Positions 7,334-23,741 of a DNA stretch of 43,875 nt are shown one piece after another. The notes beneath the pieces were generated by a model. It was not told the origin of the DNA. It was given only the letters and a program-made list of their open reading frames with translations, and searched no databases. Source of the stretch: Acidobacteriaceae bacterium (lineage in GTDB: Bacteria > Acidobacteriota > Terriglobia > Terriglobales > Acidobacteriaceae); the NCBI GenBank assembly GCA_025355505.1, contig JANXZM010000046.1:1-43875 (forward strand). The letters are read 5' to 3'. The translations under genes were made by a program, and so were the position numbers. Positions within the stretch are counted from its first letter, which is position 1; each line of letters starts with the position of its first letter.

Positions 7334-7421
7334 TGTCATCCTGAGCCAGGCACAAGGATCCGATTGTCATCCCGAGCCAGGCGAAGGACCCGATTGTCAT
7401 CCTGAGCGAAGCGAAGGATCT
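7334..7421. repeat. Three degenerate copies of the TCATCCTGAGC repeat
   Basis: Copies begin near 7334, 7365 and 7395, each about 30 bp, of the form TGTCATCCTGAGC then GAAGGATC. They belong to the same family as the 13-unit array at 41477-41970, in opposite orientation. They lie between rplU and rpmA, directly after the rplU stop codon. Confidence 0.85.
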
Positions 7422-7422
7422 G

Positions 7423-7893: not shown

Positions 7894-8091
7894 AGACGCT
7901 CCTCTGTAGTTCTCTATATAAAGTTCTTTTAAAAACTCTCGCAAACTCTGACAGGCCGGGACGATTACGTCCACCCGGCGCAAACAAGCTCCGCTTGCAC
8001 TCACATGTGCTTGCTGTTTTCCCGCTGCGGCTTCTGACCGGAAACGCGGCGCGGTCCCAGAACGGGTCCGCAAGTACAGGCAAACTCATCT

Positions 8092-8121
8092 AGTCTATCG
8101 TGCGCTGTGGAAATCGGTCAA
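8092..8121 (-). promoter_or_regulatory. Probable promoter of rplU-rpmA
   Basis: On the minus strand, TTGACC (8116-8121) and TAGACT (8092-8097) are separated by 18 bases, close to a sigma-70 consensus. The start of transcription would be near 8085, giving a leader of about 190 nt before rplU. The -35 box lies almost entirely within the left copy of the casposon target duplication (8117-8130). Confidence 0.6.
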
Positions 8122-8130
8122 ACGCAACCT
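8117..8130. repeat. Casposon target-site duplication, left copy
   Basis: GTCAAACGCAACCT, identical to 22913-22926. The base after each copy is also G, so 15 bp could be counted, but 14 bp leaves both element ends beginning with GGG. Confidence 0.95.
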
Positions 8131-8165
8131 GGGTTGGTATATACAGACGGCAAAATGCTCCCTCC
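8131..8165. repeat. Casposon terminal inverted repeat, left
   Basis: Begins GGGTTGGTATATACAG and ends AATGCTCCCTCC. It pairs with 22878-22912; 34 of 35 positions match, the only difference being base 17 (A here, G on the right). Confidence 0.95.
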
Positions 8166-8255
8166 CACTTCCGCTCGCCCGCGCAAGCATGTTGGCAGGC
8201 TAGGAAGCTGGCATGTCAATGAGTGAAATCGCCTGTTAACTACAACTGAGACTCT

Positions 8256-9389
8256 TTAGAGTCGTCGCTTCATCCGAAGGAACGGCTCTTCGAAATACCA
8301 GCGGGAGAGGGACGCGACCGCGACCGTGATGACGATGGCAATTGTGAAAAGCAAAGTCATCTCGCCAAAGTGTCCGCGTGGTGATGCGAGGCTGGGAAAA
8401 TACCGGGCAACAAAATGATCTTGCAGATCGAACACGAGCATGTGGATAAGGTAAACGCCGTAGCTTATGTCCCCGAAGAACTGCAATACAGGTCGGTTCA
8501 CAATCGCTTTCCAGCGCGAAGTCCCGATCAACAGCGTTAACACAATTGACCCGGCAAAAAGAAGATTCAGCGCTGTGGCTCGGAATGTCATTCCGAGAAG
8601 TCTGCTCGCAAGAAAAATACCGAACGGAGCGCCTACCGCAAAAATGAGGAGACTTGCACCAAGCAAGGTGGCAGCGACGAGCCACATGCGAGCTCGGGCT
8701 CCCCACGGGCCGCGAGCTATGGTGGACAAAATTGCGCCGGTCGCAAGCCCGTCGGCGACAAGCCATGTATATCCGGAGCCCGAGTTGTACCCGCGAATAA
8801 AGTAAAACGCTCGCAAACATGGGCAAACGACACAGATAATGACCGCCACGATGGCGACCCGTCGGCGGGACAGAGAGCGCACAACCGCTGGCCAGAGCAG
8901 ATAGAAGTGCTCTTCAACGGCCAGTGACCACAAAACACCATACTGCATGGGTACGGAAAACAGTTCGGTGACATTGGAGAGGTAGAAAAAACTGAGTCCA
9001 AGAAACGCCCAGGATGCGCGGCGGTCAACCCATCCCGTGCGCGTCAGGATTGCAAGAAGGAGAAGCACCGCATAGTACAGTGGCAAAATACGTAGAGCGC
9101 GTCGAATGTAAAAACTGCGGTAGTAATCTGCCTTGTTTTTCGAATCGAGCAATATACCGGTGATAAGAAAACCCGAGAGTACGAAAAACAGGTCCACGCC
9201 CATCCAGCCTGGAAAAGTGGCTTTGACAAACAGTTTCGGGAACCCCGATAGTCCCGCGATACCGTAGCGAAAACTGAAACCGTGGAAAAAAATTACGAGC
9301 AGGACAGCGATCCCACGAATCGAATTCAATTCTGGCATCAGGGGTCGCAGCAGGCTTTCCGGAGCGCCGGACTCTTTAGGGCTCGTCAT
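8256..9389 (-). CDS. Acyltransferase family 3 membrane protein (casposon cargo)
   Basis: 377 residues. It starts with the family motif ELNSIRGIAVLLVIFFHG, which carries the Arg and the catalytic His, and continues with GWMGVDLFFVLSGFLITG and WSLAVEEHFYLLWP. About ten hydrophobic segments alternate through the length, ending with SRWYFEEPFLR, as in OafA/YrhL-type proteins. Such enzymes transfer acyl groups to surface polysaccharides, lipids or peptides at the inner membrane; the substrate cannot be read from the sequence. It is the leftmost gene inside the element, 91 bp from the left terminal repeat, and lies downstream of the polB gene set on the same strand. As cargo it could modify the host surface, for instance to change phage receptors, but that is inference. 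Confidence 0.9.
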   Translation of the reverse strand: MTSPKESGAPESLLRPLMPELNSIRGIAVLLVIFFHGFSFRYGIAGLSGFPKLFVKATFPGWMGVDLFFVLSGFLITGILLDSKNKADYYRSFYIRRALRILPLYYAVLLLLAILTRTGWVDRRASWAFLGLSFFYLSNVTELFSVPMQYGVLWSLAVEEHFYLLWPAVVRSLSRRRVAIVAVIICVVCPCLRAFYFIRGYNSGSGYTWLVADGLATGAILSTIARGPWGARARMWLVAATLLGASLLIFAVGAPFGIFLASRLLGMTFRATALNLLFAGSIVLTLLIGTSRWKAIVNRPVLQFFGDISYGVYLIHMLVFDLQDHFVARYFPSLASPRGHFGEMTLLFTIAIVITVAVASLSRWYFEEPFLRMKRRL

Positions 9390-9497
9390 TCCGCTGGAAT
9401 CATAACGGATAGGCTATTGACCTCGCTCGACACTCGGTATGAAGTCCGAAACGCCGCGAAATTATTGGTGAAAAATCGCGATAGCACTCACAATTTC

Positions 9498-9725
9498 TTA
9501 CCGGTAGGCACGCCTGAACTGCCAAAGAAAACCAGCCACAAATACTGCCATGACGATCAGCAAGGAACTGGGCCTGACGACAGAAATGGGGTCCGAGCCA
9601 ATGGACCCTTCGCCATGTTGTTTAGATGCCAAGACCAATAGGTAGCTCATGATACAGACAAAGAGCAGGACGGCGACCGAAAACACAGCAACGAGTCCGG
9701 CCATTATGCTCTTGAGGTAAATCAT
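9498..9725 (-). CDS. Small two-helix membrane protein, unknown
   Basis: 75 residues with two hydrophobic stretches, about residues 8-32 (AGLVAVFSVAVLLFVCIMSYLL) and 53-69 (SSLLIVMAVFVAGFLW), joined by a polar loop and ending in basic residues. I do not recognise the family. It sits between polB and the acyltransferase on the same strand, with about 110 bp on each side. The flanking spacers share a weak repeated stretch (TCGCGAT near an ACTCA), perhaps from an old local duplication. Coding status is likely because the membrane topology is coherent, but not certain. Confidence 0.5.
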   Translation of the reverse strand: MIYLKSIMAGLVAVFSVAVLLFVCIMSYLLVLASKQHGEGSIGSDPISVVRPSSLLIVMAVFVAGFLWQFRRAYR

Positions 9726-9834
9726 TCGATGCCGTTTTCGTTTGGGATGGGTCAGTAGCCGCTTTGAAGCTTACGCTCCCGAATTCGCATGTCAATTGGC
9801 GAAATATCGCGATTACACTCATTGACCTTTCTGG

Positions 9835-12762
9835 TCACGAGTTCGGGTCACTTCTCGATTCTGATGTCTGGCTTGCCAGCCAACCTGCAAATTGACTATA
9901 GGAATTCCTCTTTACGGGTAACCCCCGAACAAGCTTTCTAATAAAGTTCTTGCGATCAAATCCGCTTTCGCGCGCACACCTGTTAATGCCGATCTCTTGT
10001 ATTGCTGCCTTTACTTCATCGCTTGCAACCACTTTCCCTTTTCGACCGTATTCGGTCGCAGCAAATTCCAGAACGCTGATTTCGTCCCCTTCTTCCCATT
10101 TGCGATCCGTCTCTTTCCCTACATAACGAATTTCTGCGGCGACAATGTGGCCACGTTTGAGCAATCCTTTGGTATCCGCTCGGCAAGGTCCACCATCGGG
10201 AGACAAGCTTTTCGCTTCTGGGTGCCTCTGGTACTGATTCAGCAAATGCGCGAACTGTGACGGGAACACCATGTTATACGGGATATTTCCGTTGATCTTT
10301 TTGCAATTCCGCATTTCGTATCTCTTTCCGTCATGTATGTTTACGCACTCCAGGCCAAGCCATTCGTTTTGCTTCGACGAAAACGGGCAGACCAGGAGCA
10401 CCTTTTCGGTCGATTTTCTGTGAAACGCAAATCCATATAGAGGATCAACCATCGGCAGCAGAAGAAAATTGTACGGGCGGGCAATTTTCCATTCTCCGAG
10501 CATTTCCAGCACGTTATAGGTCGTAATCGTCAGGCGCATCATTTGGGGAATATCGAGCCAAGATGGCTCTTTTCGCTTTACATTCAGCTCGCCGCGCACA
10601 ATATAGTCCCAGAGCTCATAAATCCATTCCGGTACTTCTTTGTCCCAATTCTCTTGCGAATTCTTCGGTGGATAAAGAAAGCCGATGCCATGCGCTTTCG
10701 GGTCAACAATGTTGATTTCCGATTTCCCCGTTTTCTCGTATAGCGTGTACCGCTTGGCTGCAATGCTGTAGCCGTAGAGCTGGCGTTGTGGCTTTGAGGA
10801 ATCAGAATCAACGAAATTGGCGTCAACCAGATTAAGAATAGAGCCTTTAACTGCCTTTGGGTCGTATGGGTTTAGAGATTCAAATCGATCGGTTATTTCC
10901 TTCACCTCGGCCCAGGAGAGAATTCTCAATCCCTCGCTGCCTAGGATTTTCAGGGGCCCGCCATCTTTCGAGCTGACGATTGCCAGCGAATCGGTATCGC
11001 AGAACAGGTATGTTCCTTTTTTCTCCGAGACGCAGGTTTCTGTCATTGCCAACAATAGACGCCCGGCAGAGGTGATCAACGAAGCCAGCGGAGCGAAAAA
11101 CCATTTTCCCTCTTTTTCGATTACATCCGAGGACTCTGAGAAAGTCTTTTCCCCGGAAAAGATTTCCAGCGAAATGTTTCTATTTTGCAGTTCCGGGATG
11201 AGCTCAACGAAAAAGCCATAAATCGAATTGGCAAGAATCTTCAGCCAGTAGTAGAGCTTTTTGTCCGCTTTGTTCAATTTTCTCTGTTCGATCACTTTTC
11301 GAAAGAGATCGTCTTTGTACGGATCGATTTCGACCATGCTTCCTCGCAAAGCAACGGTTTTCATGCCAGCTTGCTTTCCGTGCGGCACGATTCGAATAGC
11401 TCGGAGAATGCGGGGGGCTTTGCCAGTCCGGATCGCAGACGCAACCAAGTCACAGCCTGCAAACCAGAGCGGCGTTTTGGAGGTTAAGTAGTTGTTGCCG
11501 ATATTTTGGGTTGCGCCGTTGTAAACGGTGCGCACGGGCAGAATGTCATCGCTTGGTTCAACGAGCGCGAAAAATCTGAATTGTTTCCACAATGCCGGAT
11601 TGAAGCAACGATTTAGGGAAATCGTCTCGACCAACTTGCGGATGTTCTTGGTGCCATCTTCAAAGGTGACGCGCTTTGCGGTCAGGATGTCGAAAAGCCC
11701 CAATAGGGCACAGCAAGTTGGATATTCGCTTGTGAAATCGACAGGCACAACGGGAACCTCGGTACAGCGAATGCGTGTTTCCGAGCGCCCCCCATAGTAG
11801 GTTTGCATCGCGATTCCGTGGTATTTGGGTGGAATCTTAAATTTCTGTGCAGGGAGCTTGATGCCCATAGCTTCCAAATAGCTCTTCGCCACGCTGGCAG
11901 GCGAGTAGGCGTTGCAGGGATTTAAGGGAATCGGGTGTTTATCGAATTCTTCTTTTAGGGCATTAAGAGCGTCCACGGTGCACCGCCCGTCCTGGCGTGC
12001 GTATTCGATTTCTTCAACTGTCACTTCACCTGTCGGTTCGTGATCCAGTTTTTGATTCTCTGTCTTGAGTTCTTCGCAAAGACGCTTTAGAGAGTAGGCG
12101 CGATTGAATAAGGCCCATGCCAGAGTTCGCAGGTCCAGAAAACGCCCCCTGCCGTTACCCCTCCACTCTTTTGGTTTCCATGGATTTGCTAGTTTGATAA
12201 ACGCTTTCTTGCTGTCAATTGGCGATATCAGAACGCGCGGGCGATAGCGGTTTTCGACTCCGTTAGGGAACTTCGACATAACGAGAGACCATTCATCGTT
12301 GTCGCCTCTTTCCCAAGCCACAGCCAACCGGGAAAGGTCGAAGGGAAGATTTAGACCGCAAATCAAGGCTCCGTTGCGCTTGATTGCGGGCCAAAATACC
12401 TTTTGAAGAAAATCGGTACGCGAATAGAGCGGAAATTCTGGCGGGAATGACTTCACGTCTGAAATTTCTGTTTGTACATATCTCTGCAGGATTTGGAGCT
12501 CTGATAAGGGGAGATCGTCGGCATAGAACAAGCCTTCCCGGACAACTTCATATTTTCCGTTCCTGAGCTCGCAAAGACGGAAGACGCCAAACGTTAACGA
12601 CTGGTCTGCTGTTGTTCGTGTTTCCGTATCGAAGACCAGGGCATACACAGGCCATTTCAATCGGTTATTGGTTCTGGTGTTCCGTTTCTTACTTACTTTC
12701 TTTTCTTCTTGCTCTTTGTCGGTCGCGTATGCACGGACGAAAACATCATGGATTTCTGTCAT
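9835..12762 (-). CDS. polB: Family B DNA polymerase (casposon PolB)
   Basis: 975 residues from the ATG at 12762; an upstream in-frame start at 12813 lies inside the HNH gene. Numbered from 12813, the exonuclease motifs are FDTET (D62, E64), NLPFDLS (D159) and YARQD (D275). The linker motif YYGGR is at 339-343. The polymerase motifs are A, DFTSEYP (D359); B, KILANSIYG (about 525-533); and C, FCDTDS (D606, D608). All catalytic acids are present, so it should be a proofreading replicative polymerase. In casposons PolB is thought to copy the excised element, hence self-synthesising. The start overlaps the end of the HNH gene by 17 bp, indicating translational coupling. I cannot tell from sequence alone whether priming is by protein or RNA; no separate terminal-protein gene is obvious. 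Residues beyond about 700 are not recognised. Confidence 0.93.
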   Translation of the reverse strand: MTEIHDVFVRAYATDKEQEEKKVSKKRNTRTNNRLKWPVYALVFDTETRTTADQSLTFGVFRLCELRNGKYEVVREGLFYADDLPLSELQILQRYVQTEISDVKSFPPEFPLYSRTDFLQKVFWPAIKRNGALICGLNLPFDLSRLAVAWERGDNDEWSLVMSKFPNGVENRYRPRVLISPIDSKKAFIKLANPWKPKEWRGNGRGRFLDLRTLAWALFNRAYSLKRLCEELKTENQKLDHEPTGEVTVEEIEYARQDGRCTVDALNALKEEFDKHPIPLNPCNAYSPASVAKSYLEAMGIKLPAQKFKIPPKYHGIAMQTYYGGRSETRIRCTEVPVVPVDFTSEYPTCCALLGLFDILTAKRVTFEDGTKNIRKLVETISLNRCFNPALWKQFRFFALVEPSDDILPVRTVYNGATQNIGNNYLTSKTPLWFAGCDLVASAIRTGKAPRILRAIRIVPHGKQAGMKTVALRGSMVEIDPYKDDLFRKVIEQRKLNKADKKLYYWLKILANSIYGFFVELIPELQNRNISLEIFSGEKTFSESSDVIEKEGKWFFAPLASLITSAGRLLLAMTETCVSEKKGTYLFCDTDSLAIVSSKDGGPLKILGSEGLRILSWAEVKEITDRFESLNPYDPKAVKGSILNLVDANFVDSDSSKPQRQLYGYSIAAKRYTLYEKTGKSEINIVDPKAHGIGFLYPPKNSQENWDKEVPEWIYELWDYIVRGELNVKRKEPSWLDIPQMMRLTITTYNVLEMLGEWKIARPYNFLLLPMVDPLYGFAFHRKSTEKVLLVCPFSSKQNEWLGLECVNIHDGKRYEMRNCKKINGNIPYNMVFPSQFAHLLNQYQRHPEAKSLSPDGGPCRADTKGLLKRGHIVAAEIRYVGKETDRKWEEGDEISVLEFAATEYGRKGKVVASDEVKAAIQEIGINRCARESGFDRKNFIRKLVRGLPVKRNSYSQFAGWLASQTSESRSDPNS

Positions 12763-13069
12763 TGCCTTTATCCTCCATTTGAGCCTTGGTGTGTTTTTCA
12801 AGCTCTCCGACAACCATCCACAACCCGACGAGCAGCGCCTTTACAGCTTGCAAGCACCGCATCATTGAATTGCTTTGTTTCTGAAAATCGACATTTGCCC
12901 GCTCACAGTTCTTGTGAAACTGGTCGTGATCGTCTCCGCAGAACGGAAGCCACAGCCCACCGACGTGCTTCCGCCCGGCGACGTGGTTGTTTTCCAACCG
13001 GCGGGTACTTCCGCAGAAACACTCTTTGGGGCAATCGAGACATCGTTTGCGGGACCGCTTGACTGTCAT
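12746..13069 (-). CDS. HNH endonuclease-like protein
   Basis: 107 residues. The N-terminal half carries a Cys-rich segment (C10, C13, C17, C19) followed by ENNHVAGR (H29), LPFCGDDHDQFHK (C44, H48, H52), an HNH/beta-beta-alpha-metal arrangement with structural zinc ligands. The C-terminal half (VKALLVGLWMVVGELEKHTK) is helical and not recognised. It overlaps the upstream HTH gene by four bases (ATGA) and the downstream polB by 17 bp, so the three are one translational unit. HNH nucleases are a regular companion of Cas1 and PolB in casposons. The role there is unknown; excision or resolution of intermediates is a guess. Confidence 0.8.
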   Translation of the reverse strand: MTVKRSRKRCLDCPKECFCGSTRRLENNHVAGRKHVGGLWLPFCGDDHDQFHKNCERANVDFQKQSNSMMRCLQAVKALLVGLWMVVGELEKHTKAQMEDKGNDRNP

Positions 13070-13533
13070 GCAGCACCCCCGGTCAACGAGCGGTAGAGCG
13101 AATAGGGAAGAATTTCTTTTCGCGCTTGGTCGACTAGTGTCTCGGTATCGGTTACCAGCTCAATTCCCGCAATCTTCTTTCCGTGCCACGGGGCCATGGC
13201 ATTGCGATCACCGCGAAGCAACCGATTGACGGCAGCTTTGTAGTTCGCGAACTCGCTCGCACGTTTTGATCCACGAACGGTTATTTCTCTGGGTCCGTCA
13301 AGTCCGGGAATCTGCAAATATCGGACTAGTCGATCGCTTTTCGTTGCACGGATGCGTGCACCTGGGCGATCTTGCATTAGTGCCGAGCCAGCGTATTTCC
13401 TAATGGTCCGGGCTGTGACCCCGTTCTCGCGAGCGGCCACCGATAGCGAAGACCCTCGTCGCATGGCTGCGATCGTGTGGAGGGCTCGGTCACGAGCCAA
13501 CTTGTTACGTTCAGATTTATTTTTTCTCATCAC
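13066..13533 (-). CDS. Helix-turn-helix protein of the casposon core
   Basis: 155 residues. Residues about 20-55 (RRGSSLSVAARENGVTARTIRKY) form a homeodomain-like/resolvase-type helix-turn-helix. The remainder, with repeated Arg/Lys and an ITVRGSKRASEF segment, is not recognised. Its stop overlaps the HNH start in ATGA, and a 141-bp gap separates it from the sigma-like gene upstream. HTH proteins are commonly encoded next to cas1 and polB in casposons. It may bind the terminal repeats or repress the set; neither can be shown here. Confidence 0.8.
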   Translation of the reverse strand: MMRKNKSERNKLARDRALHTIAAMRRGSSLSVAARENGVTARTIRKYAGSALMQDRPGARIRATKSDRLVRYLQIPGLDGPREITVRGSKRASEFANYKAAVNRLLRGDRNAMAPWHGKKIAGIELVTDTETLVDQARKEILPYSLYRSLTGGAA

Positions 13534-13674
13534 CCTAAGGCCCCACGTGTGGGGTATGTGGGGTGGTGCTAGGTCGTGACCACTTGAGAATCCAACGACC
13601 TAGAGGGGTTCATTTTCAAGATTAAGGTTGGGGTTCGATCTACTGGTGTGGGGTGTCAGAATGTGGTTTAACTT

Positions 13675-14667
13675 CTATTCTGGTGTGCTCTTGGAGTCCT
13701 GCGCTTTACGCTTTTCGCCCGAATGGAATCTGCCCATCTTTGTTTCACCCGCTTTGATATGTTCATAGGCTGTTTTCCGGTCAAGCCCCATTCGCGAAGC
13801 AATTTCGCCTAGCTTCAGTCCATATTCATATTTCAACGAAATGGCTAGCTGCTGTTTTTCGGTCAAAGTATGCATATATCGGGAAAGATCGGATTTCCGG
13901 ACCAGCCCCTTAGTGCCCTTCAACCAATGTTCGGGGTTATGTGTTTCCCCGCCTTGATCGCCTGCCATTTCAGTTGGAATCGCACCAGCAGCTGCAAGTT
14001 CCTCGTTGCGCACGGTCTCAATTGCAGTCCCTAAGGCCCATAAGAAGACCTTCTGCGCTCCTTTGAATAGCAACCGAGTGTGGCTCTGCCCCAGCCTCTC
14101 CGAAGACTCCATGCTAGGTACATGCTCCGTCTTCATTAGGCCGACGCCGAAGAAAACCAGCGAGACTCCAAACAACCAGCTGGGCGCTTGCCAATCTGCT
14201 GATGGCGGTAACGGAGCAAGAAACGCTGGTACGGGAGTCGATACTGTCCCGCCAGGGACAAATGGGAACGACGCTATGCGGCGAATCTTTCGGTTTTCTC
14301 CTTCACACGCCAAAATGTACCAGTCACGCATCCATTCCAGGGCTGCATGGACGGCAGGTTGAAGTTGAAGCCACGCCCAGTTGGTCGGATCGCCTCCCGT
14401 TTGACTCAGATGGGCGAGACTCAGCTTGAAGTACCGTCGATATGTATCCGCGAGCAACGTCACCATCTGTACTCGCAATGGATAGAAAGATCGATAAAAT
14501 GCTGCACTCTTCTGGACTACCTGCATTCGCTCTATTTCAGAGTGGGCCATGAGTGCCTCGCTCCCACTCATCGAATCAAGTTTGGCGAACGCATCCCACC
14601 ATAAGTTGGCAACGGCTTCCAGCGCTGATATTAGAGTGGGGTTATTCTTGGGCTTTTTGCGACTCAT
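13675..14667 (-). CDS. Protein with C-terminal sigma-70 region 4-like HTH
   Basis: 330 residues. Residues about 265-312 (LTEKQQLAISLKYEYGLKLGEIASRMGLDRKTAYEHI) match sigma-70 region 4: a helix, then an HTH recognising DNA. No region 2 is visible. The N-terminal 250 residues are helical, Trp-rich (NLWWDAF, NWAWLQLQ) and unrecognised, with one hydrophobic patch near 165-180 (WLFGVSLVFFGVGLM). It diverges from cas1 across a 200-bp spacer, so it is well placed to control both transcripts. It is either a transcription regulator or a DNA-binding replication accessory of the element. Confidence 0.7.
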   Translation of the reverse strand: MSRKKPKNNPTLISALEAVANLWWDAFAKLDSMSGSEALMAHSEIERMQVVQKSAAFYRSFYPLRVQMVTLLADTYRRYFKLSLAHLSQTGGDPTNWAWLQLQPAVHAALEWMRDWYILACEGENRKIRRIASFPFVPGGTVSTPVPAFLAPLPPSADWQAPSWLFGVSLVFFGVGLMKTEHVPSMESSERLGQSHTRLLFKGAQKVFLWALGTAIETVRNEELAAAGAIPTEMAGDQGGETHNPEHWLKGTKGLVRKSDLSRYMHTLTEKQQLAISLKYEYGLKLGEIASRMGLDRKTAYEHIKAGETKMGRFHSGEKRKAQDSKSTPE

Positions 14668-14867
14668 GCCTGAGAGGGAAGTTTAATGGATGTGCGATAT
14701 ATCAGCTATTTCTTAAATGTATATGTATGACGGAAGGGGTATAGCTCCGAATCCACAGGAAAGAATGTAATATGCTCCGTTCGACCTAAATGATAGAATC
14801 GTAAGTAGATAGAACGGGCCTGCCAGCTGTTATCAGCAGCCGACAAGCCCTAACCACCACCGGAGGT
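14668..14867. promoter_or_regulatory. Divergent control region between the sigma-like gene and cas1
   Basis: Two hundred AT-rich bases with TATA-like stretches (GCGATATATCAGC, AAATGTATATGTATG, TAATATGCTCCG) in both orientations and no coding potential. It must hold promoters for both arms of the element. I cannot pick a single -35/-10 pair with confidence. Confidence 0.5.
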
Positions 14868-16406
14868 ATGACTCCTATGGCAGCTTCAGGCACCCTACCG
14901 CATCTGGTCCCTTCCATCAAATCTCCGATTGGAAAAACCGGGACATTGGCGCTTTCGGGCTTTGGAATCAAAGTGCGAATGCATTGTGGCCACCTCGAAA
15001 CGGAGGATGGTATCGGCCCTGATCGTCGCAAAATCAGACTTGCACGTATCGGCCACGGACTGAAACGACTTGTGCTGATTGGCTCCGATGGGTTCGTTAC
15101 GATTGAGGCTCTTCGCTGGATAGCTGATCAGGATGCAGCGTTCGTGATGTTGGACCGTGACGGGTCACTACTCACAACCACAGGACCTGTTCGTTCTTCC
15201 GATGCTCGACTTCGACGGGCTCAGGCTCTTGCCACGCAGTCCGATGTGGCCCTTCGAATTGCATTGGAATTGATCGATAAGAAGCTGGCAGGACAAGAGG
15301 AGGTTGCCCGCAACAAGCTGCACGCACCGAACAATGCAGATACAATTCATCGCTATCGATCGGAATTGGCCGAAGCTGATTCGATTGTGCGGGTCCGGTC
15401 GATTGAATCATCTGCCGCAATCGCCTACTGGTCGGCTTGGCGTTCCCTACGAATAAAGTTTCCTACGAAAGACGAAGCGCGGCTGCCGGATCACTGGCGT
15501 GTCTTTGGGGCCCGGATGTCTCCGCTCACGAGTTCTCCTCGTCTCGCCGTGAACCTGCCCAATGCGATGCTCAACTACCTTTACGGCGTGCTTGAATCGG
15601 AATGCGGCCTCGCTGCCGCTGCTCTCGGTCTCGACCCTGGGCTAGGGGTACTTCATCAGGACGCGAAGGCTCGCAATAGTCTTGCCTGTGATCTGATGGA
15701 GCCCATTCGCCCACAAATTGACAGCTACGTACTTGACTGGATAACTCGTGATCCGCTGAAAAAAGAATGGTTCGTCGAGCAACGTGATGGGAATTGCCGT
15801 CTCACAGCTGCGCTCGCCATCCGACTCTCCGAGACAGCTCCAATGTGGCGGCGAGCGGTCGCTCCAATTGCGGAGTGGATTGCTCACAAATTCTGGACGC
15901 CTTCGGCAAGGCCCAAGACCAGTTTGCCAACTCGATTGACACAACGGAACAAGCGCGAGGCAAAAGGTGCGGCACCACACGAAGAACCTGTTTCACCGCC
16001 ACGCAGAGAGAATGTCTGCGCGGGATGCGGGAAAACAATTCGACATCAGTTCACGCATTGTAGGGACTGTGCCAAGGACGGATGGTCCAAGAACATGGTG
16101 AACACCGCTCGTCTGGGACGGCTCACCGCAAACGGTTCAGCCGCCCAAGCCAAGAGAAGGAATACGCAACGTCGCAATCATGAAGCAGTTCGTGCATGGG
16201 ATCCGACGAATCAGCCTTCATGGCTCACGGAACAATTCTATTCGGAGAATATTCAGCCGTTGCTTGCCCAATCTTCGAACGCCGCCTTAGCAAGAGCATT
16301 AGGCGTGTCGCGTGCGTATGCAGTCCGAATCCGGCGGGGTCAGAGCCCGCATCCGAGGCATTGGTCGGCCCTAGCGCAATTGGTTGGAATTGGAGGAGCG
16401 TTATAG
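14868..16406 (+). CDS. cas1: Cas1-family integrase (casposase) with zinc finger and HTH tail
   Basis: 512 residues. Residues about 25-350 are Cas1: a beta-rich N-terminal part (KRLVLIGSDGFVTIEAL, AFVMLDRDGSLL) and a helical catalytic part. Expected metal-binding residues are present: E180 in IESSAAIAYW, H263 in GVLHQD, and D275 with E278 in ACDLMEPIRP. NAMLNYLYGVLE before them is the conserved helix. Residues 384-401 form a zinc ribbon (CAGC and HCRDC). Residues about 470-490 (AALARALGVSRAYAV) look like a helix-turn-helix. CRISPR-associated Cas1 is usually 300-340 residues without such a tail, whereas casposases do carry C-terminal DNA-binding extensions. GGAGGT abuts the first ATG; the ATG at 14877 has better spacing and may be the real start. 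No Cas2 or CRISPR is nearby. Predicted role: integration of the element via its terminal repeats. Confidence 0.93.
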   Translation: MTPMAASGTLPHLVPSIKSPIGKTGTLALSGFGIKVRMHCGHLETEDGIGPDRRKIRLARIGHGLKRLVLIGSDGFVTIEALRWIADQDAAFVMLDRDGSLLTTTGPVRSSDARLRRAQALATQSDVALRIALELIDKKLAGQEEVARNKLHAPNNADTIHRYRSELAEADSIVRVRSIESSAAIAYWSAWRSLRIKFPTKDEARLPDHWRVFGARMSPLTSSPRLAVNLPNAMLNYLYGVLESECGLAAAALGLDPGLGVLHQDAKARNSLACDLMEPIRPQIDSYVLDWITRDPLKKEWFVEQRDGNCRLTAALAIRLSETAPMWRRAVAPIAEWIAHKFWTPSARPKTSLPTRLTQRNKREAKGAAPHEEPVSPPRRENVCAGCGKTIRHQFTHCRDCAKDGWSKNMVNTARLGRLTANGSAAQAKRRNTQRRNHEAVRAWDPTNQPSWLTEQFYSENIQPLLAQSSNAALARALGVSRAYAVRIRRGQSPHPRHWSALAQLVGIGGAL

Positions 16407-16749
16407 TTTCTGATCCCACCGGTAGACGATTTCGACTGGCGCACTGCGCCGCGCGACATAGACTGACATTGCGACAAACCCAGAGTACCGAGGAGGTTGT
16501 GTCAGAGTTTCATGAACGTGGTCTGATGGAACCATCGCGTTAAGTGTTCTCTACTCGGATCAGGCGGACTTCTTGCTGCGTAGCAGCACGACTGTCGATT
16601 TGTTCAACCGCTGCGAAGACGAGAGCGTGTATGGCTGTCGCATAAAAGAAGGGGCCTTCAGTTCGGCGCCAGACACACTGCGATGGATCGCAGAAAGATC
16701 ATACGGACTGATCTGCGGACTTTTCGTTTTCTCATTCATATTTGCATCT
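16407..16749. other. Noncoding spacer after cas1
   Basis: About 340 bases separate the convergent cas1 and the TIR-like gene. I see no convincing gene, repeat or strong terminator hairpin. A short plus-strand frame (16573-16758) has no recognisable features. Confidence 0.5.
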
Positions 16750-18135
16750 CTATTCTGATGGTTCCAGGTAGAAATTCCAAAAACTATTCGTTAGCATAGC
16801 ATCCCCGGTCATGACACGGAAGACCGAGTTTGAGACCGCCTCTCGAAGGAGGTGATACTCGACGTTCCCAATTGATTTCCGTTCGATGCGGAACTGCAGA
16901 GTCGTTGTGACAATTCTGTATATCAGCTTCGCACAGTCCTCTAAAGTCCTCACCACTAGCACCCCATTTGCGACGCCGGTGTCGAGATTTACCTGAATAC
17001 CCAAAGGGTGGCTTTCCCTTAATGTTTCTGCTCGCTTCTCATAGTGTCCTTGGGCGGTTTTCACAAGCAATTCCAATGCGCTCTTGCTGTCAACTTTGTC
17101 CGGTGCATCGAGCCAGTGACGAACCTGAGGATTCTCCCACGCGAGGTTTGGAGAGAGAGCCTGAAGCCGTTCGAGGATCACAGACGATTCGGACCGGCCG
17201 TAAAGCGCCGAAAGGTCCCTAACGGACTTTACAACTTCGATTTCTGTAGGCGATGGTACGTAAGCAATGACAGGCTTTCCCTGAGCCAACGTCGATGCGA
17301 GTTCCGAATCCTTGCCGAGTGTGTCGGATTCTTGGGCCAAGTAAAGAGTGCACTTTGCTCGCTTCAGCATAAGTGCCTCCGCCAATCCCTTGTCGATACG
17401 ATCCGCGCAGTATGCCTGGGTTGGGTCGAACCACCGAAGTTTCAAATCCTTAATCAAGTCGTGGTTGAAAAGTTGGTTAGAGAACTGAGCCACCTCAACG
17501 TACTCATGCCTCCGTCGCATTGAGGTTGCCACATATACGTCCAAATGATCGGAGACAAGATAAGCATGCTGATTGCGAATTCCCTTTTCACGAACTCTCT
17601 CCAGGACCTTTTTCGCCGCCAAAGCTACAGGGTCATTCGGGTTTTTCTGAAGCTGGTCGTTCAGTTCTTTCTGAATCACATAGCCAAGGTAATAGGTTTC
17701 ATCTAAAGGGATCTGGTCCACCGCATGAATAGCGTCATTTCGCTGCTTGAGGGTTTGTTCGTCAACCGGCTGAGTCGAAGCGTGGTAAAAGCGCAATTCG
17801 TCTGCATCGCGAGCGAACTTCTTAAAGCCGAACTTAACGTTTCCGAAGAACAGGAGGGACAGTTGACGAGCCCGCTCCACTCCTGCTTCAAAATCCTCGA
17901 TTGATCGAATCGCGCAACCAGGCTTGTAGTCGAGTGTCCCGTCAGCGAGAAACTGAAAGAAAGTTCGGGTGACTCGATCATATCCGAGCAACAGTAGCAG
18001 TTCATTTAACTGGCTATAACCCAGACCCGTTTTAGGGAAGCTTGAAACTCCATCCAGCCCTTGGGGGAGCGGGGCACGCTGACCCGTAAGGGCCTCAAGT
18101 AATTTGCCAAGCGTTTGAGATTCACCTGTTGTCAT
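16750..18135 (-). CDS. Predicted sensor/effector with TIR/deoxyribosyltransferase-like domain
   Basis: 461 residues. Residues about 197-294 read LDVYVATSMR, then CADRIDKGLAEALMLKRAKCTLYLAQE and GKDSELASTLAQGKPVIAYVP. This is a Rossmann-like pattern of the TIR / nucleoside deoxyribosyltransferase group: a hydrophobic strand, an Asp-containing middle, and a Glu (E279) followed by A-x-GKPVI. In that group the Glu can be the catalytic residue for cleaving N-glycosidic bonds such as that of NAD. The N-terminal 190 and C-terminal 165 residues are not recognised. It runs opposite to cas1 and to the following cargo. By analogy it could be an NAD-depleting or nucleotide-sensing defence protein. The domain call is moderate and the function is inferred. 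Confidence 0.6.
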   Translation of the reverse strand: MTTGESQTLGKLLEALTGQRAPLPQGLDGVSSFPKTGLGYSQLNELLLLLGYDRVTRTFFQFLADGTLDYKPGCAIRSIEDFEAGVERARQLSLLFFGNVKFGFKKFARDADELRFYHASTQPVDEQTLKQRNDAIHAVDQIPLDETYYLGYVIQKELNDQLQKNPNDPVALAAKKVLERVREKGIRNQHAYLVSDHLDVYVATSMRRRHEYVEVAQFSNQLFNHDLIKDLKLRWFDPTQAYCADRIDKGLAEALMLKRAKCTLYLAQESDTLGKDSELASTLAQGKPVIAYVPSPTEIEVVKSVRDLSALYGRSESSVILERLQALSPNLAWENPQVRHWLDAPDKVDSKSALELLVKTAQGHYEKRAETLRESHPLGIQVNLDTGVANGVLVVRTLEDCAKLIYRIVTTTLQFRIERKSIGNVEYHLLREAVSNSVFRVMTGDAMLTNSFWNFYLEPSE

Positions 18136-18509
18136 CCCAACCCTCTTTTCTTGAGAGCGAACCAGCGATTATACTCACCGTCCCAAAGGGGTCTGCGCCT
18201 GAGGCTCGGAGCTTACGAAAAACGAACAAGCAGGACCGATGAAAGTACATTCCGTTGAAATGAGTGCACAATTGTTTGCCTCAATTCTGTCGGACAGCTG
18301 CAATTTGAGGTTTCTGATCCCCCCAGGCATATGGAGGTAGACGAACAAAAAGCGAATTTGTATTATCGTAGCCAATAGGCACTGGCATTCAGTGGGCGGA
18401 GTGGCTAGTTGGCAAGAATCGACAATCCCGTCGTTTCGGCCATGTCTCTCTATCGAGCCATTGTCATTGTGTCTCTCAAAAGGTGCGTAGAATAGGGAGC
18501 ATCGGAGCG
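18136..18509. other. Divergent spacer upstream of DUF5131
   Basis: About 370 bases between two divergent cargo genes. It should contain both promoters. A short minus-strand frame (18175-18573) exists but has no recognisable features. I see no CRISPR-like repeats. Confidence 0.45.
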
Positions 18510-19385
18510 ATGGCGACAAAAACCAAGATCGAATGGACAGACGCGACCTGGAACCCAGTTCGCGGCTGCTCAAAAATTAGTCCAGGATGCAAACACTGCT
18601 ACGCAGAGACCTTCGCGGAGCGGTTTCGCGGCGTAAAAGGACATCCATATGAGCAAGGCTTTGATCTGAGGCTCGTTCCTGACAAGCTCTTCGAGCCATT
18701 CTCGTGGGCTAAACCCAGTATGGTATTCGTGAACTCGATGAGTGACCTATTTCACGAAGACGTTCCGGATGACTACATCGCACAGGTCACTCGGGTCATG
18801 ATGGAGGCGAATTGGCACACCTATCAAGTCTTAACTAAACGTTCCGATCGACTGACGAAGATGCTCGGTAGCACTCTTAAGTTCGCGACTGAGACGCGGC
18901 ATATTTGGTGGGGAGTAAGTGTCGAAGATATCAAACACGGCAAGCCGCGGATCGAACATATCCGACAAAGTTCGGCCCGAATAAAGTTCTTATCAATTGA
19001 GCCACTACTCGAAGATTTGGAATTTGTGGATCTTTCTGGTATTGATTGGGTGATTGTAGGAGGGGAAAGCGGTCCCGGCGCACGTCCGATGAAAGAGCAA
19101 TGGGTCCACAACTTACTTCGATGCTGCCGTCAGTACAAAGTTCCTTTTTTCTTCAAACAGTGGGGAGGAGTGCAGAAAAAGAAAGCTGGACGGGAGTTCG
19201 GGGGGCAAACGTACGATGAATTTCCGTTTACGGCGGGGGAGACAATACCAGACCGGGTAGTACGAAGGCAGCTTGCCTCGGGCCTAGAGGCGCAATTCAA
19301 AGCACATGAAACCCACAAACTCGTCTGCGAAGATAGAGGACTCGAACAAACCCGTTCGGCCCCTATTTCCCGATCTACCACCTAG
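18510..19385 (+). CDS. DUF5131 (phage Gp37/Gp68) family protein
   Basis: 291 residues from the ATG at 18510; a GTG at 18483 is also in frame. The start IEWTDATWNPVRGC is the family signature. Three cysteines (C20, C27, C30, as C-x6-C-x2-C) resemble a radical-SAM-type iron-sulphur site. Further motifs are VFVNSMSDLFHEDVP, VLTKRSDRL, WWGVSVE, IKFLSIEPLL, WVIVGGESGPGARPM and PFFFKQWGG, all typical. The family is found on phages and mobile elements and is a regular neighbour of the gene that follows here, TcmP. The biochemical reaction is not established. Its 3' end overlaps TcmP by 80 bp in a different frame, so the two are co-expressed. Confidence 0.9.
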   Translation: MATKTKIEWTDATWNPVRGCSKISPGCKHCYAETFAERFRGVKGHPYEQGFDLRLVPDKLFEPFSWAKPSMVFVNSMSDLFHEDVPDDYIAQVTRVMMEANWHTYQVLTKRSDRLTKMLGSTLKFATETRHIWWGVSVEDIKHGKPRIEHIRQSSARIKFLSIEPLLEDLEFVDLSGIDWVIVGGESGPGARPMKEQWVHNLLRCCRQYKVPFFFKQWGGVQKKKAGREFGGQTYDEFPFTAGETIPDRVVRRQLASGLEAQFKAHETHKLVCEDRGLEQTRSAPISRSTT

Positions 19386-20274
19386 CAGCAACGCGAAAGC
19401 TCGTCGATTCGGTCGAATCCGCAGCCCGATCTGGTCCGAGCACAAAGCCAAGTTTATCCAGCAGTACCTGAGGATCTTCGTTCAAATCACCAAGCACGGC
19501 GCCTACGTGGATGGCTTTGCTGGGCCGCAAAACGATGGTCAAGTGGAAGCGTGGTCGGCCGAGCTAGTCTTGAAGAGCGAGCCCAAATGGCTCAGGCACT
19601 TCTTTCTCTGCGAAAAGAGTACGAAGGGACTCGCAGCGTTGAGGAGACTAAAGAAATCGCAGCCTATCCCCCGAGATAGGAACGGCAAAAAGCTTTATCG
19701 CAACATCGAAATTTGGCCGGGTGATTTCAACAAGAACGTGGCCGAAATCCTGAAGGGTGGCAAGATCACCCAAAAAGAGGCAGCGTTCTGCTTGCTGGAT
19801 CAGCGAATGTTTGAGTGCCACTGGGAGACCGTAAAAAAACTGGCGGCTTACAAGAACGAGCCGAACAAGAAGATCGAACTTCTGTATTTTCTCGGCGTGG
19901 GATGGTTGCATAGGTCACTTTCAGGGATCCGATATACCGAGAAAATGGACAAGTGGTGGGGACGCAAAGACTGGCAACAGTTGAAGACAATGACGCACAT
20001 CGCAATCGCCGACCTCATGCGCGACAGATTCCAGAAGGAACTAGGCTACCGATTCGCCGCAGCCTACCCCATTTACGACCGAGAAAACGGTAACAGGGTT
20101 ATGTACTACATGATTCATGCATCGGACCACGAGGATGCCCCGACGCTCATGGTACGGGCTCACCATAAGGCAGTACGGTCGTTGCCAAAGGAGACCCAAG
20201 AGGTTTTTCAATTCGCCAAAAATGAAGAAACGTGTATTCCAGAATCAGAGGGTCTGCTTCAACAGAAGTTCTAA
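19306..20274 (+). CDS. tcmP: Three-Cys-motif partner protein TcmP
   Basis: 322 residues. Residues 66-74 (GAYVDGFAGP) carry the DxFAGP loop typical of TcmP, preceded by WSEHKAKFIQQYLRIF. The fold resembles a Rossmann methyltransferase, but the usual second Gly after GP is Gln here. The family name comes from pairing with the cysteine-motif DUF5131 protein, exactly the arrangement here (80-bp overlap). It is known from mobile elements and suspected defence islands; its substrate is unknown. The downstream kinase-HD gene starts 12 bp after its stop codon, so three cargo genes probably form one transcript. Confidence 0.88.
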   Translation: MKPTNSSAKIEDSNKPVRPLFPDLPPSSNAKARRFGRIRSPIWSEHKAKFIQQYLRIFVQITKHGAYVDGFAGPQNDGQVEAWSAELVLKSEPKWLRHFFLCEKSTKGLAALRRLKKSQPIPRDRNGKKLYRNIEIWPGDFNKNVAEILKGGKITQKEAAFCLLDQRMFECHWETVKKLAAYKNEPNKKIELLYFLGVGWLHRSLSGIRYTEKMDKWWGRKDWQQLKTMTHIAIADLMRDRFQKELGYRFAAAYPIYDRENGNRVMYYMIHASDHEDAPTLMVRAHHKAVRSLPKETQEVFQFAKNEETCIPESEGLLQQKF

Positions 20275-20285
20275 TAAGAGGATGC

Positions 20286-22877
20286 ATGACAGTCGAGAAC
20301 ACCCAAGAACCTGTGTCGATTCAAGAGTTCCTTGCTGAGCTTGGCAAGAAATATGAAGCCGATTCGAACTTGACTCCCTTTTGGAAGGCGGAGTCGGCAG
20401 CCCTCACCGAAATCCTTCCCACGGTCCTTGAGGAACTACCCGACAATTACAGTCTTGGAAAACCTCTAGGGGTCGGCGGCAGCGGCATCGTTGCTGTTTT
20501 GTACGACACAAACCTAGACACCAGCAGGGCGCTCAAAGTGGCGCGACCGTCACCGGGCAAGGAACCCCTGTTGGCCCAAGTATTGTTGCAGGAGACACAG
20601 AGTCTGATGAGACTCTCTCACCAGAACCTCATCAAGATATACGCACAGGGCGTCGCGGAATACGAAGAAAACCAGTATCCCTTCTACGTAATGGATTGCG
20701 TCCCGGGCGTTCGTGATGCAGACGACTACCTTAAGCAGGCTACGATCACTTCTGATGGGGTAATACTTCTCCTAAAAGGCGTATTTAGCGCGATTGAATA
20801 CCTGCATGACAATCACACAATACACATGGACATTAAACCAGGAAATATTCTGGTCACTCCATCTGGTACACCGATCATCTCCGACCTTGGTTTCGCGAAG
20901 CATTTAACGACTAAGTCTGGTGAAACATTGATTGGAGGGACAGAGGGATATATACATCCTGACGCCCGGCGCTTTGTTGAGGGCAAGAGTGATCCGAATC
21001 GACTGAAAGGTCTTGTCAGCCGTACAGAGCTAAAACCCACGTGGGACTTGTACTCGTTGGGAAAGACTGTGCTAAGACTGCTGACGGTTCTCGATGAACA
21101 CAATCCCAAGAGTCTGGATTCTTATCGGAAGAGATACTTGAAGCTTCTAGCGTGCCGTCTTCTTGACGGCTACAACGGTCCCGAAGAGCGCGCAGTCGGT
21201 TTATCTTTAGCCACGTTCAGAGAAATAAAATATGCGTCTATTACGCAGTCTAAGACTGATCTGGAGAAACTGACCGGCGAGTACAATTTGGAATATCGCA
21301 TTCCTGAGCTTAATCTGCACATTCAAGACACTATCCAGGTTAGCACTCTGGCGTCCACTCCTTTCACCAGTCGGGTGAGCAAGCTCATTGGCCATCCGGT
21401 AATGATGCGTTTAGGAAGAGTCAGTCAGTTGGGTCTTCTCAATCTCGTATACCCGACCGCGACGCACAGCCGTTTAGAGCATTCTCTCGGTGCTTTTTCC
21501 GTTTTAATCAGGTACATCGTTGCTCTTTACAATGATCCGCTAAACCCCCTTTTTAAACAAATCATGGATGAGACAGATTATCGAGCAGCCCTCCTTGCGG
21601 GATTGCTGCATGATATCGGCCAATATCCGTTGGCCCATGATCTAGAGGACGCGGACGAAAGCGGATTCTCGCACGCTAGGATTGGCGCAACCATCTTAAA
21701 AGATGAATCCCTGGGCCTCGCGCAGATAATGAGGGATGATTGGAATGTATCCACAGATCGCGTAGTTGCTATTTTGCAGGCTGATCCACTTCGGTTGAGC
21801 GGCGACCTGAAGGATCGGATCTTGCATAGCCTAATCGATGGTCCGTTGGATGCCGACAAGATCGATTACTTGATTCGAGACAGTGCACGTCTGGGGCTCA
21901 CATACGGTCAAGGGATCGATTTAGCGCGCCTGATGAGCACTTTAACTATCGTGTTCAAAGAGGAAGATAATCAGACTGCTGCCGTATTGGGGGTTCATGA
22001 AAAAGGGAAAGTAGCGGCAGAGGCCGTAGCATTCGCGCGCTATGCGATGTTCGGAAGCGTCTATTGGCATCATGCCTACAGATCGATCAAAGCGATGCTG
22101 CAGCGAATCGTGTGGGAGGCTTTAGCCGCACAAAAGGATGACGTGGCACGTACGGACCTACGAAAGGAATTTCAAGCATATATCTACCCTAAGGGCAGAA
22201 AGGGTTCTCAGGAAACATTATTCTCCGATGCCGACCAAGACGATGGATTCCCGAAGGATGTTTCGCAATTGCAGGCAGGGGACCAGTCGGTGATCGAATG
22301 GATCGGAGGCAAGAGTTTCAGCGGGCGCAAGCTGGCCGATGGTCTGATACGCCGAAAACTATATAAGCGCGTCTTCGTTCTTTCTGTCGAAAAACCATCG
22401 GAGGAAAACGTTTGGGAGCGTCTTGGAGATTTTCGGCGGAGATTCAGGAACGCTTGGCAGAAGATGCGGGACCTACAGATAGAGTTTCAAGCGCGCATAG
22501 TTAACTTGATCGAACGAACTGACAGACCAAATATCGAAACTGCCGTTGTTACTCCCGATGTCAGAAACAGATTTTTGTCACGCCGCGAGGAGGCCCTGCT
22601 CTTAATTGACATTCCTCCTGTGCGGAAGAATCCGGAAGGGCTGCAATATTTGGCAGAGGAAGATCGCAGGCGATACAAGCTAGATGAGTTAAAGACTGGA
22701 AACTGGGAAAAATCGAGTCTTTGGAATGAACTCCAACAGAATTCGCGAGGTACGCTTGCCAAGGTGAGGGTTTTCAGTGATCCGGAGTTTTCTGAATTTC
22801 TGACCTCGTACGTAACCCACAGCCAGATCGAGGCCGAACTGCAGAGCGCGTTAAAGAAAATGGAATCGGAAGGATGA
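20286..22877 (+). CDS. Ser/Thr protein kinase fused to SAMHD1/dGTPase-like HD phosphohydrolase
   Basis: 863 residues from the ATG at 20286, preceded by AAGAGG; an upstream frame extension overlaps TcmP and is unlikely. Residues about 55-300 are a eukaryotic-type kinase: Gly loop LGVGGSG, K84 in ALKVARP, catalytic HMDIKPGN (D182, N187), ISDLGFAK (D200, DLG for DFG), and WDLYSLGK. Residues about 345-640 are an HD domain of the dNTPase/SAMHD1 type (COG1078): SQLGLLNLVYP, THSRLEHSLG, LLHDIGQYPLAH (H442, D443), and PLDADKIDYLIRDSARLGL. All catalytic residues of both domains look intact. The C-terminal 200 residues are unrecognised. dNTPases deplete nucleotides against phage, and kinases act as switches in several defence systems, so a kinase-gated dNTPase is a reasonable hypothesis, not shown. 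The stop codon directly abuts the right terminal repeat. Confidence 0.88.
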   Translation: MTVENTQEPVSIQEFLAELGKKYEADSNLTPFWKAESAALTEILPTVLEELPDNYSLGKPLGVGGSGIVAVLYDTNLDTSRALKVARPSPGKEPLLAQVLLQETQSLMRLSHQNLIKIYAQGVAEYEENQYPFYVMDCVPGVRDADDYLKQATITSDGVILLLKGVFSAIEYLHDNHTIHMDIKPGNILVTPSGTPIISDLGFAKHLTTKSGETLIGGTEGYIHPDARRFVEGKSDPNRLKGLVSRTELKPTWDLYSLGKTVLRLLTVLDEHNPKSLDSYRKRYLKLLACRLLDGYNGPEERAVGLSLATFREIKYASITQSKTDLEKLTGEYNLEYRIPELNLHIQDTIQVSTLASTPFTSRVSKLIGHPVMMRLGRVSQLGLLNLVYPTATHSRLEHSLGAFSVLIRYIVALYNDPLNPLFKQIMDETDYRAALLAGLLHDIGQYPLAHDLEDADESGFSHARIGATILKDESLGLAQIMRDDWNVSTDRVVAILQADPLRLSGDLKDRILHSLIDGPLDADKIDYLIRDSARLGLTYGQGIDLARLMSTLTIVFKEEDNQTAAVLGVHEKGKVAAEAVAFARYAMFGSVYWHHAYRSIKAMLQRIVWEALAAQKDDVARTDLRKEFQAYIYPKGRKGSQETLFSDADQDDGFPKDVSQLQAGDQSVIEWIGGKSFSGRKLADGLIRRKLYKRVFVLSVEKPSEENVWERLGDFRRRFRNAWQKMRDLQIEFQARIVNLIERTDRPNIETAVVTPDVRNRFLSRREEALLLIDIPPVRKNPEGLQYLAEEDRRRYKLDELKTGNWEKSSLWNELQQNSRGTLAKVRVFSDPEFSEFLTSYVTHSQIEAELQSALKKMESEG

Positions 22878-22912
22878 GGAGGGAGCATTTTGCCGCCTGT
22901 ATATACCAACCC
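22878..22912. repeat. Casposon terminal inverted repeat, right
   Basis: Reverse complement of the left end with one mismatch. It starts at the base after the stop codon of the kinase-HD gene and ends TATATACCAACCC. Confidence 0.95.
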
Positions 22913-22926
22913 GTCAAACGCAACCT
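22913..22926. repeat. Casposon target-site duplication, right copy
   Basis: Identical to 8117-8130. Joining the two flanks restores an uninterrupted spacer between the rplU promoter and the Abi-like gene. Confidence 0.95.
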
Positions 22927-22940
22927 GCCGAGGGCACGGT

Positions 22941-23715
22941 TTAATTTTGAACCTTTGGTTCCCTAGCCTCTGCTTCTTCGTTTGCTGACACCGGTCGATT
23001 TCGTTTTAGATTCTTGTTGTATCGCTCAACGAAACAGTTCCGATATGCAACCCAACACTTGACATCAGAGCTTAGCAGGCCGATTACTTCTAGGAGTTGC
23101 TGGAATTCCGCCGGTAAATCTCGGTCTCGTCCAATAACCCTCTCATGATGGGCGATGCGATTTCGCAGAGTCTTGCATCGAATCAGCATTCCGTGAAATG
23201 TCTTACGTCTTATGGTCTTTGGCACTATTTGATGAAGATATTTAAACCAGAGCGATCTTTCGTAGGTATGTGCCGCTAGCTTTACCCAAAAACCGAAGGT
23301 CAGTTCGGCTATCACTCGGCCTGGAGTGAGTGGGAGCAATTTCTGTTTAACATTGTCTTTATGCCTGCTGTAGGACAGCCAGTTCGGTAGGCTCCCAAAT
23401 GATTCGGTCGTACCACTCGGGAGTACCCACCTCTTTCAACATCACATTATGAACGGCATTTCGGAGAGTTATTTCGAGACCTTGGAGCCCGCCATACAAC
23501 GCTTCAGAGCATTCGGTATTGCGCTCGTAAAGCTGGAGACCGATCCATTTGTCGCCGCCAGCCAACACATAATAGGACGCAAGTCGTTCAGGAGAAAGGT
23601 ACTTTTCCAGCGTGGCAAGGGTCTTATCTGTATATTTAAAACCGCCTTGACCATTTGTCATAAGCTTGATATTCTCTATTCGTAAGCTTTGGTGTACCCC
23701 TGCTCTAGAGAGCAT
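22941..23715 (-). pseudogene. Abi-like protein gene, frameshifted
   Basis: Two minus-strand frames make up one protein. The first (ending 23359) contains LERYLS-type KYLSPERLASYYVLAGGD, GGLQGLEITLRNAVH and EWYDRI. The second (22941 to about 23380) continues with GRVIAELTFGFWVKL, then KTLRNRIAHHE. Together these are the hallmarks of the Abi_2 family (AbiD/AbiF, phage abortive infection): an RNA-binding-HEPN-like architecture with an R-x4-H pair in RNRIAHHE. The frames meet near 23375, where ELAVL in one frame is followed by SYSRHKDNV in the other, so a single-base shift explains the break. The start could be 23715 or 23661. It lies directly beyond the casposon's right end. Either the gene is dead or the base call is wrong. 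Confidence 0.75.
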
Positions 23716-23741
23716 GTCCCCAAAGCGCAGGATTCGGAAAG

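Follow-up and report, generated by a model that had tools for sequence, protein, structure and literature searches.

Casposons are the proposed source of adaptation in clustered regularly interspaced short palindromic repeats (CRISPR) systems. In the DNA analysed here (the window: 43,875 nt of contig JANXZM010000046.1, assembly GCA_025355505.1, Acidobacteriaceae bacterium, forward strand), an initial annotation had proposed a complete casposon in a bacterial chromosome at positions 8131 to 22912. According to the available part of PMC4046053, the family 3 casposons AceAut-C1 and NitAL212-C1 possess the same solo Cas1, family B DNA polymerase (PolB), HNH and helix-turn-helix (HTH) genes, terminal inverted repeats (TIRs) and target site duplication (TSD), but occur in other hosts and with other cargo than the window element, and AceAut-C1 carries zinc-binding and HTH domains at the C-terminus of its Cas1, as does the casposase of the window. 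The targets given in this part of the paper are the 3' ends of elongation factor 2 (EF-2) and tRNA genes and intergenic loci, and targeting of -35 boxes is not reported there. The casposon of Aciduliprofundum boonei (family 2), as described in the accessible part of PMC6614799, shares the 14-bp TSD and the C-rich 3' end of the TIR; its target, beside a tRNA-Pro gene, combines CC at the border with the leader motif TCAAATC at -15 to -9, whereas in the acidobacterial target the border is GTCAA, the complement of a -35 box, and a -10 box lies at a distance of about 19-24 nt. MetMaz-C1, according to the portion of PMC10359463 at hand, shares a TIR starting with GGGATA, a 14-nt TSD and tandem integration at the original site, and unlike the window element it has an archaeal host and reported or predicted sites that include tRNA-Leu-like ones. 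Casposon targets in these cited papers, as far as the available parts extend, are few and mostly archaeal. Tn7, guided by TnsD to glmS (general knowledge and the available part of PMC4046053), likewise inserts beside a conserved housekeeping gene and leaves it unharmed, but its transposase is unrelated and it inserts at a coding gene's 3' end and not at a promoter. CRISPR adaptation by Cas1-Cas2 likewise involves joining by Cas1, duplication of a target repeat and growth beside a leader, whereas in the case of the casposon a kilobase element and not a spacer is inserted and the promoter points away from the array.

We consider it very probable that the window, from a soil acidobacterium, contains a complete family-3-like casposon integrated by its own Cas1, and that it belongs to a group which targets sigma-70-type promoters, duplicates 14 bp there and forms arrays growing at the promoter end. 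The TIRs, the TSD, the empty sites, the geometry of the target and the arrays can be read directly from the sequences compared, and by analogy with studied casposases the joining would be carried out by Cas1. The left TIR (8131-8165, plus strand) and the right TIR (22878-22912, minus strand) comprise 35 nt each and on alignment are complementary at 34 of 35 positions, and the 14-nt TSD GTCAAACGCAACCT is present at 8117-8130 and 22913-22926 with 14/14 nt identical, which bears out the ends and the perfect duplication claimed by the initial annotation. A possible 15th base of the TSD is ambiguous because both the flank and the TIR begin with G. From the near-identity of the TIRs, a recent integration is plausible. 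A detector for TIR plus TSD pairs, which fixes the TSD at 14 nt and uses no target motif, was applied to 63 stretches, namely the window and the DNA surrounding Cas1 matches in relatives. Pairs were found in 28 of these and in none of 3 x 63 (189) Markov-shuffled stretches; the length of the TSD was left free in one test only, with nine elements. The 35 stretches in which no pair was found, many of them contig-end fragments, lie outside the target statistics.

The casposase (14868-16406, plus strand; PF01867, 8.9e-40) consists of a Cas1 domain, a stretch with four cysteines (C384, C387, C398, C401) and a C-terminal HTH ending in HPRHW. In 13 sequences the four-cysteine stretch and this HTH are invariant, as are the catalytic columns E, H, D and E, which were assigned by alignment to the structure 6opm. 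This structure, the casposase of Methanosarcina mazei, is the closest solved structure by sequence (81.2 bits, 6.2e-22), followed by the CRISPR Cas1 4n06 (77.7 bits, 7.3e-21), and it is also ahead when the predicted fold (predicted local distance difference test, pLDDT, 76) is compared (3.7e-18 against 8.4e-16 for 4n06). In a phylogenetic tree, for which four fragments and a weak hit of 544 aa were dropped from 34 rows, the Cas1 of the window does not fall inside the CRISPR-type Cas1 sequences included: 20 acidobacterial casposases including that of the window form one clade (100/99), apart from eight CRISPR-type Cas1 rows, namely two from the PDB and six acidobacterial ones classed by profile alone (best NCBIfam match Cas4g/Cas1g for five and Cas1c for one). 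The sole archaeal casposase row lies on a long branch beside 4n06 and its placement is insecure. Every Cas1 found in the genome of the window belongs to casposases, and in 12 carrier genomes 17/17 Cas1 matches lie within casposases or their fragments. Judged by its sequence, with the family 3 references (the clade of Henriciella, Streptomyces, Nitrosomonas and Acetothermum casposases) compared by description only, the element is a bacterial, family-3-like casposon, having the family 3 traits of a bacterial host, an HNH-like gene (recognised by motif only) and HTH genes. The proposal of a complete casposon in a bacterial chromosome is thus supported by the TIRs, the TSD and the presence of Cas1, PolB, HNH-like and HTH genes.

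What the initial annotation had missed is the nature of the target, which is the predicted -35 box of rplU and which follows a rule among relatives. The rplU gene for ribosomal protein L21 (open reading frame (ORF) 7423-8073, minus strand; PF00829, 6.5e-31; conserved start at about 7893) is preceded by a predicted promoter core (8092-8121, minus strand) consisting of TTGACC (-35), an 18-nt spacer and TAGACT (-10), as judged from position, conservation and the gene downstream. On the minus strand the gene-side TSD (8117-8130) reads AGGTTGCGTTTGAC, and its final five bases, TTGAC, are the first five of this -35 box, whereas the distal TSD (22913-22926, minus strand) adjoins the TIR and has no -10 box at spacer 17/18. 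The unoccupied site was found in related genomes: of 22 rplU loci examined elsewhere in the genus and family, 20 were alignable at the promoter and all had TTGAC, although the anchor used for these loci itself required TTGAC or TTTAC, and by eye none of the 20 promoters adjoins a TIR. In these 20 relatives the DNA upstream of rplU is conserved from TTGAC toward the gene and diverged beyond it, and in five relatives dtd and rplU are adjacent with no insert. The relatives therefore do not contradict the element boundaries, their rplU loci being empty sites.

In order to define the target across relatives, 29 elements were delimited without reference to a motif, 23 in a first set and six from genomes fetched later; the TTG/CAA end then served to orient each TSD, and a check of the gene side followed. 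All 29 TSDs end in TTGNN and 26 in TTGAC, the others being TTGAG (G169_C1), TTGCG (G276) and TTGTC (G430). In the first set, TAnnnT follows at a spacer of 16-18 in 10 of 12 sites, compared with 3.7% of 1688 TTGACs, and in the later set TTGAC was found in 6/6 and TAnnnT at spacer 17/18 in 5/6. When the sites are reduced to 13 target loci, TAnnnT at spacer 17/18 is present in 10, whereas among control TTGACs, from which 62 known TSD copies had been taken out, it is present in 59/2766 anywhere, 39/364 intergenic and 30/161 intergenic and upstream of a gene (Fisher p 1.2e-14, 1.2e-7 and 2.6e-5, respectively). In a logo of the 13 loci, more than 1 bit is reached only at TTGAC and, in the -10 box, at the leading TA and the last T; the next-strongest columns (0.64-0.69 bits) are two further -10 positions and the G preceding TTTGAC.

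The genes behind these promoters, named from their translations except for rplU and the tRNA genes, are varied. The rplU promoter is occupied in the window and in G513, that of valS on contig C23 of the same genome and in G016, G004, G282, G092 (two elements in tandem), G468 and G546, and that of tRNA-Gln in G300, G213, G169_C2, G098, G137 and G663. Other targets are tRNA-Ala (G169_C1), thrS (G315), a radical-SAM gene (G001, G092_C10), a RodZ-like gene (G060), a GAF gene (G010), the gene of an FG-GAP-like protein (G276), those of two Tat-signal proteins (G302, G776) and that of a Ser/Thr kinase (G456); one element lies inside a TonB-receptor-like ORF (G430), and in G012 and G343 the host gene is out of view. 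These data suggest that the attachment site of this acidobacterial casposon group is a predicted sigma-70-type promoter, and the pattern would probably be caused by targeting rather than by selection.

In the mechanism that we propose, one cut would fall between the fifth and sixth bases of the -35 hexamer (immediately after TTGAC, gene strand) and a second one 14 bp farther upstream. In the gene-side copy, the -35 box, the spacer and the -10 box would stay together and would still drive the host gene, whereas the distal copy would lose the -10 box. The TIR beside distal TSD copies lacks TAnnnT at spacer 17/18 in 23/23 elements of the first set, and therefore only the promoter-side copy would stay a promoter. 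As this copy alone is still target-like, further insertions are expected there; later casposons would land at the promoter-side copy and tandem arrays would grow from the promoter end, a prediction with which the decay pattern in the arrays agrees.

At 18 of 24 listed sites, either a further element end (CCC) adjoins a TSD copy or another element comes next, and the TSD copies within an array are identical among those printed. In G016 the element beside valS is intact, its 5.9-kb neighbour has a PolB fragment but no Cas1, and of a third element the end is present; the three are set apart by three TSD copies. In 10 arrays (G282, G213, G302, G468, G456, G060, G300, G092, G343, G016) Cas1 is full-length in the promoter-side element, and the visible distal DNA holds at most a Cas1 fragment; in this list the neighbour in G302 is uncertain, the gene side of G343 is off the contig and the distal stretch of G300 has mismatched ends. 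The distal DNA visible in G004, G010, G001 and G513 is too short for polarity to be read. Broken Cas1 genes were also found in the lone elements of G098, G137 and G663. The polarity of growth would accordingly probably be at the promoter end. In the genome of the window itself, contig C23 (1-19242) carries a tandem pair at the valS promoter, in which a 9.9-kb element with identical 38-nt TIRs is followed by a distal one that the contig end truncates. The valS promoter is present in 14/14 loci of the genus, this genome included, and a CCC TIR-like end adjoins it in 10. Four of these 10 loci (G003, G009, G013, G015) are in genomes with no Cas1 match, two of which are less than 90% complete, and the ends themselves suggest that Cas1-less CCC ends at valS may be non-autonomous or decayed casposons.

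Several observations weigh against this interpretation. By sequence, the margin of casposase over CRISPR Cas1 in the PDB comparison is narrow. Orienting the TSDs by their TTG/CAA end gives the motif two chances, the excess of TAnnnT is about fourfold over the strictest control, in which 'intergenic' is defined by ORF calling, and the logo alignment dropped one spacer base in three sites. TAnnnT at 17/18 is missing from the GAF locus of G010 (GAGACT) and the Tat-ADH locus of G776 (AATACT), one of the 13 loci (G430, TTGTC..TGCACT) lies within an ORF, and 28 of the 29 elements come from one class. Among the arrays, which were chosen through Cas1, G012 shows the reverse polarity, both elements on C23 appear intact as far as the cut distal one extends, and the promoter-side Cas1 is truncated in G169_C2 and G546. 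Furthermore, the sigma-region-4-like protein of the element is not common to relatives, and HTH155, the conserved HTH protein, has no structural match.

How the promoter is recognised can be stated with less confidence. We tentatively favour, at well short of even confidence, a complex that reads both the -35 and the -10 box (directly or via sigma70 RNA polymerase), cuts at the -35 box, restores the promoter only on the gene side and thereby lets arrays grow there; in the form preferred, the casposase complex would contact GTCAA at the cut and the -10 box about two helical turns away. As a second choice, promoter-bound RNA polymerase-sigma70 might be the guide, recruiting the integrase or exposing the target, and the element itself would read no sequence. 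RNA polymerase tolerates variation between 17 and 18 in the spacer, as seen at these targets, and the promoters of valS, rplU and tRNA genes are among those hit, but sigma region 4 would cover the bases that are cut, and we regard this explanation as possible yet doubtful. It seems unlikely that the casposase recognises only GTTTGAC at the cut, promoters being hit since TTGAC is the commonest -35 box and intragenic insertions being lost. The TSD end gives the strongest signal in the logo, the intragenic insertion in G430 indicates that a promoter is not essential, and in archaeal casposons the first leader-side bases of the TSD matter (PMC6614799, available part). However, TAnnnT at 17/18 occurs in 10/13 loci against 30/161 TTGACs just upstream of genes, and two of the three non-TTGAC sites (TTGAG and TTGCG) have good -10 boxes, TACACT and TATACT. 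Sigma region 4 binds -35 boxes, and the accessory protein with a sigma-70 region-4-like C-terminus (13675-14667, minus strand; PF08281, 6.1e-7) might thus select the target like TnsD of Tn7, which is very improbable because elements that lack the protein share the same target; as a general selector it was rejected, with homologs in only 4 of the 63 stretches, and its matches on C23 and in QHZC end before region 4 and that in G008 is cut by the contig end. HTH155 as a sigma mimic was likewise rejected (best PDB match E 1.5). Least credible of all is that the duplicated -35 box and the TIR create a new promoter for casposon genes and so favour insertion, for although TTGNN directly abuts the TIR at every distal TSD copy, 0/23 first-set TIRs have TAnnnT at the standard spacing of 17/18.

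Casposase matches, in counts that include fragments and in genome samples that overlap, were obtained in 45 of 398 genomes of the family (1e-40), 25 of 399 of the class (1e-30) and 9 of 396 of the phylum (1e-40), so that the statement of the initial annotation that bacterial cases are few fails for the acidobacterial group. The genome of the window has three casposase matches in total, one of them cut by a contig end, and the six named relatives are Acidobacteria/Terriglobia metagenome-assembled genomes. Casposases had no match at 1e-5 in plasmid and phage records. In viral contigs a casposase was found at one locus, whose single visible end reads TTGAC followed directly by GGG; this search for ends presupposes the motif, and such ends occur in 8 of 36 stretches scanned. 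Short ORFs that match only the C-terminal HTH of the casposase (G014:C45:16976-17131 and similar ones) are scattered in relatives.

The cas1, polB, HNH and HTH genes described in the initial annotation do lie between the TIRs, the HNH gene by motif only, and all catalytic motifs are present, in Cas1 by alignment and in PolB by eye. PolB (9835-12813, minus strand; 992 aa), whose C-terminus looks HTH-like by eye, is divergent: its profile matches are weak (PF00136, E 0.036; PHROG DNA polymerase, 1.2e-9) and it has no match among PDB sequences at 0.1, and the motifs DTE, DFTSEYP, KILANSIYG and YLFCDTDS are legible in the ORF. The ORF at 12746-13069 (minus strand), which from its motif we take to encode an HNH-type protein, has no family match in Pfam, PADLOC, NCBIfam or PHROG. 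HTH155 (13066-13533, minus strand) is defined by alignment across relatives, and its model (pLDDT 83) is the one compared with the PDB above. Homologs were found in 46 of the 63 stretches for PolB, 42 for HTH155, 13 for the HNH ORF and 4 for the sigma-region-4-like protein, counts affected by the incompleteness of many stretches, and the gene lying between HTH155 and Cas1 varies among elements. A 461-aa protein (16750-18135, minus strand) has no family match in the same four collections. The cargo comprises a membrane acyltransferase (8256-9389, minus strand; PF01757, 2.8e-27) and, on the plus strand, a DUF5131 protein (18483-19385; PF07505, 6.9e-96; PADLOC candidate families), the three-Cys-motif partner TcmP (19306-20274; TIGR04474, 6.7e-43) and a protein with protein kinase and HD domains (20232-22877; PF00069, 9.2e-24, and PF01966, 1.1e-6). 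The last three, which match candidate or known defence models in PADLOC, are consecutive at 18483-22877 and may form a defence cargo module; homologs of DUF5131, TcmP and the acyltransferase were found in none of the other stretches of the 63. Among the 11 ORFs of the element, Pfam revealed neither another recombinase or transposase (at E 0.1) nor Cas2, and no tRNA or Rfam RNA was found in the window. Beyond the element, the 885 nt between the distal TSD and dtd contain two small ORFs (22941-23778), one weakly Abi_2-like (E 0.0019, below the cut-off), and could not be aligned to the five relatives that share this gene order. At 41449-41969 there are ten in-register repeat copies, spaced mostly 38-39 nt apart, and a 30-nt word of these repeats recurs once, inverted, at 7395-7424.

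Casposons are a known kind of element; we had not encountered the promoter target or the acidobacterial group before, and claim no priority. Promoter targeting by casposons was not met in the literature searched, judged from titles and the first parts of abstracts, and for casposons in Acidobacteria the search, of the same partial depth, found none beyond a mention in a reference list (PMC7305122). Growth of arrays at the promoter end recalls the way in which CRISPR arrays grow at the leader end. A two-part target shaped like a promoter, seen in dozens of bacterial insertions, offers a testable link between target choice by Cas1 and the CRISPR leader. If true, a promoter-reading integrase of the Cas1 kind would provide a living model for the way in which a promoter-bearing CRISPR leader came to direct spacer insertion, and the acidobacterial casposase may serve as a safe-harbour integrase. 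For the bacteria that carry it, the element would illustrate how a large transposon can enter the promoter of an essential gene without breaking that promoter.

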